64,000 nt of DNA, taken from positions 124,001-188,000 of the forward strand of contig JAPZAS010000015.1 of the NCBI GenBank assembly GCA_027460525.1, in the 5' to 3' direction. The notes under the pieces were generated by a model. The model had not been told where the DNA came from and ran no database searches. It saw only the letters and a program-made list of their open reading frames with translations. Source of the DNA: Candidatus Methanoperedens sp. (GTDB taxonomy: Archaea; Halobacteriota; Methanosarcinia; Methanosarcinales; Methanoperedenaceae). This document shows, piece after piece, positions 600-2,398 of this stretch (its first letter is position 1; every line of letters begins with the position of its first letter). The position numbers and the translations under genes are program-made.

Positions 600-660
600 C
601 TAATGCCAGAATTCTTTGAGTTCATTTATGGAATTCCCTCATCATGCAAAGTATTATTGG

Positions 661-1974
661 TTAATTATTGTTTGTAAGATTGATCTCCTTAAATTTACTA
701 ATTAGGTTATAAAAAGATAGTTCTTTGTTAAATTCACAAAAATAATCTTTAACCGGAAAATCATTATTTAGCCAAAACCCATTAGCCATACAGCCCCCTG
801 CACAAATATAGCGTATATCACATTCCTTACAACCATCTATCTTATCAACTGTAAGTGTTCTGAATCTTTCTATGGTTCCCGAAGAATGGTATATATTTTC
901 TAACGAATCATTTTTTATGTTTCCGCAGTGAAAATCCTGGTGATGCAACATTTGGCAGGGGAATACATCTCCATTGGGGGAAATACTCAGAATAGATGTT
1001 CCGGCGCCGCACATCTGGTTTTTTGTTCCGAATTCAGGAATATTTTTAGCAAAGAGAGCTTCCGAACCTTCGGGCAAACTAACTAAATGTTCAAGAAATT
1101 CATGTGGTGAGAACGCCAAATGAGACATTTCTTTCCCTTTTCCAATTTGGAGCATGGGGGTAAATTGAAAATCAATTTCCGGGAAATATTTTTTTATGTT
1201 TGAGATATCATTAAAATTCTTCTTTGTAATAGTAGCCGCCAACTTAATTTTTACATCATATTTACACAACATTGCTATAGCACGCTTTATGGTTTTGAAA
1301 TGTCCCCTTTTTCCTCTCAACCAGTCGTTTACTTCTTCATTGGTAGAATCCAAACTAATCTGGATTTTGTCGAATATTTCGGCATATAACGAGGCATTGT
1401 TTTCATTGATAAGCAAACCATTTGTTTGCAGCACGTTTTCAATATTATTTTTTTTAGCAAAATTTGCAATTTCAATCAACTCCGGAAACAAAGTCGGTTC
1501 ACCGCCTGTATAAACGATTTCAGGATTAGCGACTGCAATATTTCTGAAAGATAGGATAGCGTTATTTATCAAATTCTTATCTAATGTACTGTACCCGTCA
1601 ATTCTATTGGAAGCATTCAAATCACGAAAACAATATAAACAATTGGAGTTGCATTTATTTGTTAATGCCAGATACATTGTTGATAATGATGTTGTTTTAG
1701 GAAGCTCGATACATTTGGTGGGGTAATTCAATGCAATTTCTTCAATAAATTTAATGCATGCTCCTCGTAGAGATTCTGCGACATGGCCATTTATTTTGTT
1801 AAGCAATTTATCAACAGTTGACTCCCCATCTAACAGTTTAAACGCCAGGAACTGTTCTTTAGATAATTTAAACCAAAAATTTACTTCAGGATTAATGATA
1901 AAATAATCACTATTGTTTTTATATACATTGAAAGAAGAATATCGTGGTAATATTAAATTTCCATTAAGTTTCAT
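661..1974 (-). CDS. radical SAM/SPASM peptide maturase
   Basis: Predicted radical SAM enzyme that modifies the small peptide encoded directly upstream. With the start at 1974 it has 437 residues. An N-terminal segment (about 1-80) resembles a PqqD-like peptide recognition domain. The radical SAM core has Cys108-x3-Cys112-x2-Cys115 (CNSNCLYC) and the GGEP motif. The C-terminal SPASM domain has cysteines at about 322, 340, 382, 385, 391, 395 and 413, enough for two auxiliary iron-sulfur clusters. The frame is open upstream to an ATG at 2046, 3 nt after the precursor stop, but those extra 24 residues look unlike the family and the Met at 1974 fits a usual N-terminus. Thioether formation (sactipeptide or ranthipeptide type) is an inference; the exact chemistry cannot be read from sequence. 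Confidence 0.85.
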   Translation of the reverse strand: MKLNGNLILPRYSSFNVYKNNSDYFIINPEVNFWFKLSKEQFLAFKLLDGESTVDKLLNKINGHVAESLRGACIKFIEEIALNYPTKCIELPKTTSLSTMYLALTNKCNSNCLYCFRDLNASNRIDGYSTLDKNLINNAILSFRNIAVANPEIVYTGGEPTLFPELIEIANFAKKNNIENVLQTNGLLINENNASLYAEIFDKIQISLDSTNEEVNDWLRGKRGHFKTIKRAIAMLCKYDVKIKLAATITKKNFNDISNIKKYFPEIDFQFTPMLQIGKGKEMSHLAFSPHEFLEHLVSLPEGSEALFAKNIPEFGTKNQMCGAGTSILSISPNGDVFPCQMLHHQDFHCGNIKNDSLENIYHSSGTIERFRTLTVDKIDGCKECDIRYICAGGCMANGFWLNNDFPVKDYFCEFNKELSFYNLISKFKEINLTNNN

Positions 1975-2049
1975 AGCTTTCAATCTCTCACCAAATAGAA
2001 ATGCTCGGCAGAAAGCTAAAGTATCTCTCGGCCGAACTCTAACCATCTT

Positions 2050-2280
2050 TTATTCAACAACTTTTTTATGGCCGCCGCCTCCACCGCCGCCACAACTATC
2101 CGTATAACTACACTTGCATTGACACTCGAAAATCGGTTTCATTCCCGGTTCTTCACGCAAGTCTAACACAAAACCTTTCAGCGGTTTTCCCGATTCTTTC
2201 TCAAAATCTTTAATTATCCTTTGAGACTCAGCATCGATCTTTTCAACCCGCTTAAGATTGATTAAAGCCTTTTTTCCCAC
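2050..2280 (-). CDS. candidate RiPP precursor peptide, Cys-rich with poly-Gly core
   Basis: A 76-residue protein placed as the first gene before a radical SAM/SPASM maturase. Residues 1-50 are charged and helical-looking, like a leader. The C-terminus reads ECQCKCSYTDSC, then seven glycines and HKKVVE, with cysteines at 53, 55, 57 and 63. I choose the GTG at 2280 because a strong Shine-Dalgarno (GGGAGGTGA) lies 5 nt before it; an upstream GTG at 2289 overlaps that site. The four-Cys/poly-Gly tail next to a PqqD-like and SPASM enzyme is the layout of a ribosomally made, post-translationally modified peptide. No family name can be given safely. No dedicated protease or exporter is adjacent. Confidence 0.72.
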   Translation of the reverse strand: MGKKALINLKRVEKIDAESQRIIKDFEKESGKPLKGFVLDLREEPGMKPIFECQCKCSYTDSCGGGGGGGHKKVVE

Positions 2281-2338
2281 GACTCTCACCTCCCTTTTAT
2301 TAAATAATATCTGCCATTACTATGTTATATCTACATTT

Positions 2339-2350
2339 AGTATATAATAA
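2339..2350 (-). promoter_or_regulatory. TATA box for the RiPP-like operon
   Basis: On the minus strand the sequence reads TTATTATATACT, preceded by a purine-rich CCGAAA that could be the BRE. A start of transcription about 25 nt downstream would leave a leader of roughly 40 nt before the GTG at 2280. Other A/T-rich stretches lie nearby, so the exact box is uncertain. Confidence 0.4.
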
Positions 2351-2398
2351 TTTCGGACGTACTGTTTGCTTTGTGTAATCCAAAAAAAAATCTCGAAT

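Follow-up and report, generated by a model that had tools for sequence, protein, structure and literature searches.

In sactipeptides, the donor cysteines are N-terminal and the acceptor α-carbons C-terminal, and one to four links between them form a hairpin (PMC8326336, PMC13361665). Recorded acceptors include glycine; streptosactin, which represents the 'GGG' subfamily, contains two sactionine rings (PMC8326336, PMC13361665). Clusters for radical SAM-modified RiPPs are predicted widely in archaea; in the survey concerned, the experimentally validated archaeal RiPPs are lanthipeptides, which are also the products that it characterizes, and it describes functional studies of archaeal RiPP clusters as limited (PMC12144867).

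Here we describe a gene pair from Candidatus Methanoperedens sp. that encodes a small peptide with four cysteines followed by seven glycines and a radical SAM/SPASM enzyme. The window, the whole 64,000-nt stretch of DNA analyzed, begins at base 124001 of contig 15; the genome is 2.44 Mb in size and 99.5% complete. The pair is very probably a RiPP cassette in the broad sense, that is, one in which the 76-aa peptide receives some radical SAM modification. The chances that it is an archaeal, sactipeptide-like RiPP cassette with Cys-S to Gly-Cα thioethers appear to us evenly balanced.

Organization of the gene pair

The two genes are adjacent on one strand, and the small precursor gene lies beside the gene of a peptide-modifying enzyme, an arrangement that supports the RiPP reading. 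The features of the precursor region are as follows.

2340..2356, minus strand: archaeal promoter-like element CCGAAATTATTATATAC, comprising CCGAAA (BRE) and TTATTATATAC (TATA); consensus recognized by eye
2286..2294, minus strand: Shine-Dalgarno site of the precursor gene, GGGAGGTGA, 5 nt upstream of GTG 2280; by sequence
2289, minus strand: alternative in-frame GTG of the precursor gene, giving 79 codons and 79 aa (frame 2050-2289)
2050..2280, minus strand: 76-aa precursor peptide gene with GTG start at 2280, recognized by its open frame, Shine-Dalgarno site, promoter-like box and position before the maturase gene
2053..2127, minus strand: presumed core FECQCKCSYTDSCGGGGGGGHKKVVE, the C-terminal end of the precursor; by sequence, approximate

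As the first-pass annotation had described, the small frame encodes a 76-residue peptide with four close cysteines and seven glycines (MGKKALINLKRVEKIDAESQRIIKDFEKESGKPLKGFVLDLREEPGMKPIFECQCKCSYTDSCGGGGGGGHKKVVE, translated from GTG 2280). GTG 2280 is the likely start since GTG 2289 sits within the Shine-Dalgarno sequence. The cysteines are residues 53, 55, 57 and 63, and the glycines (residues 64–70) come directly after the last of them; this nested order of Cys donors and then Gly acceptors fits the hairpin layout of sactipeptides (PMC8326336). In codon usage the peptide's own frame ranks at the top of the six, yet inside the range of off-frame scores. The single promoter-like element is upstream of both genes, in keeping with the earlier proposal of a two-gene unit under its own promoter.

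Domains and start of the maturase

661..1974, minus strand: RRE (PqqD-like), radical SAM and SPASM maturase, 437 aa from the favored ATG 1974; from Pfam and relatives
661..2046, minus strand: alternative maturase frame, 461 aa if ATG 2046 is used
2003..2037, minus strand: RNA hairpin between the precursor and maturase genes, with a 12-bp stem and one internal mismatch; -16.9 kcal/mol by folding

Pfam finds a Radical_SAM domain (6e-21) and a SPASM domain (3.5e-12) in the maturase. The enzyme contains the motif CNSNCLYC and the full SPASM cysteine pattern C..NGDVFPC..CKECDIRYICAGGC..C; judged by motifs and Pfam, it has the combination by which sactipeptide maturases are recognized, CX3CX2C together with a two-auxiliary-cluster SPASM motif. 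A direct Pfam PqqD match is absent from the enzyme, and the NCBIfam ScmD model matches weakly (E 0.06). When the N-terminal domains of 13 archaeal relatives are combined into a profile, hmmsearch scores its match to residues ~26–90 of the full frame at 28 bits, hhalign gives 94.6% for this domain against the PqqD-like domain of the relatives, and Pfam PqqD is present at the N-terminus of 5 of the 7 relatives checked. The match to PqqD-carrying relatives supports a PqqD-like (RRE) domain, so that the enzyme is organized as previously annotated, with PqqD-like, radical SAM and full SPASM parts. AlphaFold models made without alignment were too poor to use (pLDDT 35 for the enzyme and 49 for the peptide), and the β-β-β-α-α-α order at the enzyme N-terminus in the low-pLDDT model can serve as a hint at most.

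ATG 1974 is a likelier start than ATG 2046 because the first 24 codons of the longer frame (2046-1975) score as non-coding in frame (-0.34 versus +0.085 for the remainder), alignments of relatives start at residues 23–27 of the full frame, and GGTGAGAG precedes ATG 1974, at a spacing longer than usual. The enzyme gene had been said to follow the peptide gene directly; this is accurate for ATG 2046, which lies 3 nt past the stop, but the favored ATG 1974 leaves a gap of ~75 nt. The hairpin sits in this gap and has a z of about -3 by folding, a value whose significance is overstated since the stretch was picked after being seen. No U-run follows it in the sequence.

Relatives of the maturase and the peptide

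The best full-length relatives of the maturase are ~26–32% identical to it. A relative in genome G521 reaches 34% over 311 residues, and the closest stretch found, a fragment from genome G073, is 44% identical over 108 SPASM residues of the window enzyme. The G073 fragment comes from a truncated radical SAM/SPASM gene on contig 98 (L021/L080), with its N-terminus missing near the contig end. The search for orthologues covered 120 relatives, the whole class, viral contigs, plasmids and phages, and 394 phylum genomes in which the best few candidates per genome were scored; beyond the phylum, it comprised a short-peptide pattern scan of genome contigs, plus plasmids and phages. The two matches from the scan of contigs were both unrelated radical SAM proteins and were rejected.

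In a tree of 24 enzymes the maturase lies on a long unsupported branch and its placement is not settled. Its best NCBIfam model is the sactipeptide maturase StsB, at 136 bits and from profile position 17 on, and the DynA, mycofactocin and WgkB maturases rank next. The cut-off of the StsB family (NF045574) is 625 bits, and because the score is far under this value and the branch is long and unsupported, StsB-like chemistry is the nearest label only. The ranthipeptide models likewise score below their cut-offs (PapB, 92 bits versus 340; SCIFF maturase, 79 versus 425). The earlier view that the core matches no class that can be named was not confirmed: although nothing matches this exact core, the best maturase model is StsB and the hairpin layout of sactipeptides fits.

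Searches with the peptide yielded no real relative in 60 close relatives (best E 0.019, with in-frame stops), none in 238 genomes of the class, none in 266 phylum genomes and, in plasmids, chance or S41 matches only. When the 79-aa form was compared with NCBIfam, Pfam, PHROGs and solved structures, only S41 matches were returned, which were weak (E 0.015–0.2) and below cut-offs, and no metal-binding family was matched. The leader (2128-2280, minus strand; first 49 residues) weakly resembles the start of an S41 peptidase domain, …GFVLDLREEPG (Pfam E 0.015), a weak suggestion that it may derive from an S41 peptidase; this genome has no S41 peptidase gene. At the DNA level, this genome contains the pattern CxCxC-x5-CGGG once, and of the 394 phylum genomes just one more has it; the match there is antisense to a Pro-rich gene and was discarded. 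A reversed control pattern gave scattered, isolated matches. A CKCKC match elsewhere in this genome is not inside a comparable small gene and was set aside.

A second archaeal cluster with a CxCxC peptide

Within the class, the best-scoring relatives of the maturase are two tandem enzymes in genome G522 (28% and 26% identity; pairwise 5e-41), and their best model is also StsB. They are encoded on contig 109 in what looks like an unreported archaeal RiPP cluster (L088:3271-9522). The apparent operon starts with a 45-aa ORF, MADEKEMTFKIKVPAKALDQFATEVKGKDGCGCGCIMGCQVKVDP, which has a good ribosome site and the core GCGCGCIMGCQVKVDP; behind it are genes for a cysteine peptidase of family C25 (Pfam 2e-59), for the pair of RRE/radical SAM/SPASM enzymes and for a B12-binding radical SAM protein whose nearest match is ApyD. 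L088 resembles the cassette in being archaeal and of the same class and in having a small precursor with a fourth cysteine in addition to CxCxC, RRE-radical SAM-SPASM enzymes (in tandem in L088) and a hairpin after the precursor. It differs in its 45-aa precursor without poly-Gly, its unrelated leader, and the presence of the C25 peptidase and the B12-radical SAM protein.

The L088 hairpin is stronger (-23.9, z -6.8) and occupies the same place after its precursor; the order of precursor, hairpin and downstream gene is therefore common to both loci and counts in favor of the RiPP reading. The L088 precursor is unique to G522 among the genomes of the class and does not align with the 76-aa peptide; the CxCxC-xn-C core that they share therefore either arose by convergence or is the sole remnant of a common origin. 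As this precursor leads its cluster, archaeal radical SAM/SPASM clusters headed by a gene for a CxCxC core do exist.

Further genes beside such enzymes were noted. At four loci (L018:570-2847, L029:28-2865, L030:1510-4309 and L031:1444-4252), from several archaeal genera, one or two ~220–260-aa proteins are encoded directly before an RRE-radical SAM-SPASM enzyme and contain repeated leader-like (E/N)LRDRII.DEKLLR.LSE...FVPLVYKKPxF units; by sequence, these proteins look like large multi-unit RiPP precursors. At L022:580-2541, a Cys/Pro-rich protein of 203 aa in which CGP/CxP motifs recur is encoded directly 5' of a radical SAM/SPASM enzyme, and at L089:4606-6335 the same position is taken by a 109-aa ORF (…AYCVVGGPSPRTCGTCIVRMEYG…), a possible precursor.

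Insertion and neighborhood

600..2398, no strand: inserted low-GC segment of ~1.8 kb with both genes, missing at the same site in congeners

The GC content of the insert is 34.4%, versus 43.6% for the window. To its left is an ABC ATPase gene, accompanied by two permease genes that lie partly beyond the window, and to its right a gene for a DUF5803 protein. Five congeners (G001, G016, G006, G004 and G020) had both flanking genes on the stretch examined; in all five, the ATPase and DUF5803 genes are convergent and ~10–20 bp apart with nothing between them. Since the flanks are adjacent in 5/5 congeners and 1.8 kb apart here, the cassette was gained in this lineage; loss in all five congeners would account for the pattern less simply. 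The cassette was apparently acquired by gene transfer, and its borders show no insertion-element ends and no direct repeats beyond 10 bp.

The first-pass annotation stated that no exporter is adjacent, which is literally incorrect, as the ABC ATPase and two permease genes adjoin the cassette, but correct in effect: the transporter is ancestral to the genus and found without the cassette in congeners, and so is not cassette-specific. No protease, exporter or immunity gene specific to the cassette lies in the neighborhood inspected.

Proposed mechanism and alternative explanations

We propose that the locus is a compact two-gene RiPP cassette, acquired horizontally. The PqqD-like RRE at the enzyme N-terminus would bind the precursor via its ~50-aa leader, and the radical SAM cluster would generate 5'-deoxyadenosyl radicals that abstract hydrogen from acceptor α-carbons while the donor thiolates are bound at the auxiliary clusters of the SPASM domain. 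Cys53, Cys55, Cys57 and Cys63 would be joined to the following glycines to give a hairpin with up to four sactionine-type Cys-S-Cα thioethers, each link costing the peptide 2 Da. The intergenic hairpin may act as an attenuator that lowers enzyme output relative to precursor, and leader removal and export, if any, would depend on host functions encoded elsewhere. Because four cysteines precede seven glycines and glycine has no other carbon, Cys-S to Gly-Cα linkage would be the best-supported chemistry. The sactipeptide-like reading is supported by StsB being the best model both for the maturase and for the enzymes of the L088 CxCxC cluster; against it stand the single-genome orphan peptide without homologues, the failure of the two CxCxC peptides to align, and the absence of a dedicated protease or exporter.

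A RiPP cassette that makes another bond is possible, if doubtful. The enzyme could form non-α thioethers of the ranthipeptide kind, or C-C or C-O crosslinks, or could modify the cysteines in a way that does not involve the glycines, Gly7 then serving as a flexible linker. Such chemistry is consistent with the maturase scoring against many SPASM families of peptide-modifying enzymes (WgkB, DynA, CbpB, PapB, ScmF), with the unsettled position of the enzyme in the tree and with Asp/Glu and Tyr near the core cysteines. StsB is nevertheless the best-scoring model, the core has neither the Cx3D/E repeats of PapA-type ranthipeptides nor a W/K core motif, and the only plentiful acceptors after the cysteines are glycines, which lack a side chain for β or γ links. 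We consider it improbable that the peptide, once mature, binds metal or serves in redox chemistry inside the cell, with cysteine thiols (and His71) that are free or bind Fe, Cu or Zn and with the radical SAM enzyme making a lesser modification: a donor array is the simpler account of CxCxC beside an RRE/SPASM enzyme and no metal-binding family was matched, although CxCxC plus His, and the lack of a cassette-specific exporter or protease nearby, would suit such a function.

A shade less probable is that the enzyme really acts on some other protein, with the small ORF open by chance or unrelated. The peptide is an orphan with a codon score inside the off-frame range, and the weak S41-like match of its first 49 residues (E 0.015) could mark a gene remnant. 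Yet the genome is without an S41 peptidase, the ORF has a strong Shine-Dalgarno site and a promoter-like element, it was inserted together with the enzyme gene, and its rare CxCxC-C-Gly motif and its layout, the latter repeated in the independent L088 cluster, argue for a genuine precursor. Very improbable is a small subunit of the quinohemoprotein amine dehydrogenase type, crosslinked by an enzyme like QhpD/PeaB. This explanation draws on similar sizes and on the occurrence of PeaB among distant plasmid matches, but the neighborhood lacks the alpha/beta subunit genes expected in that case, the PeaB match is far weaker, and the Cys/Trp layout of QhpC from Paracoccus yeei is quite unlike that of the peptide.

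Comparison with known systems

The streptosactin/GGG RaS-RiPPs, whose maturase is StsB (GggB, NF045574), share with the cassette a two-component arrangement of precursor and radical SAM/SPASM enzyme, a Gly-rich core and plausible sactionine chemistry. Streptosactin itself is streptococcal, controlled by Rgg/SHP, and a 14-mer with two 4-residue rings. The cassette, in contrast, has four cysteines in CxCxC-x5-C, Gly7, a 76-aa precursor and no regulator; its host is archaeal, its precursor is not the streptococcal GGG type and no Rgg/SHP genes neighbor it. The hairpin sactipeptides (subtilosin A/AlbA, SkfA/SkfB, thuricins) likewise have donors N-terminal to acceptors and RRE, radical SAM and SPASM domains, but their models score much more weakly here (AlbA, 86 bits), and the cassette is unlike them in lacking dedicated transport or immunity genes and mixed acceptor residues. 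Ranthipeptides (PapB, SCIFF/CteB) share Cys-rich precursors and SPASM maturases and differ in that the core of the cassette is without a Cx3D or six-Cys motif. On sequence grounds, the cassette falls outside the StsB family by the StsB cut-off, and outside the ranthipeptide and QhpD systems.

On balance unlikely, though worth stating, is the further-reaching possibility that the locus is a first member of an archaeal sactipeptide-like family, carried as a two-gene mobile cassette in which CxCxC-x5-C donors are stitched to Gly7 as a polycyclic, all-glycine-Cα thioether cage, with L088-type precursors in the same wider archaeal group. No product of such a kind is described in the archaeal survey (PMC12144867). 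With its short glycine-only acceptor tract, the two-gene cassette offers a small, easily reconstituted test for archaeal sactipeptides, and allows one to ask how a maturase picks among identical acceptor residues. In the genomes searched, neither its peptide nor its enzyme has a close relative; the kind of system to which they would belong, a two-gene radical SAM RiPP, is already known.
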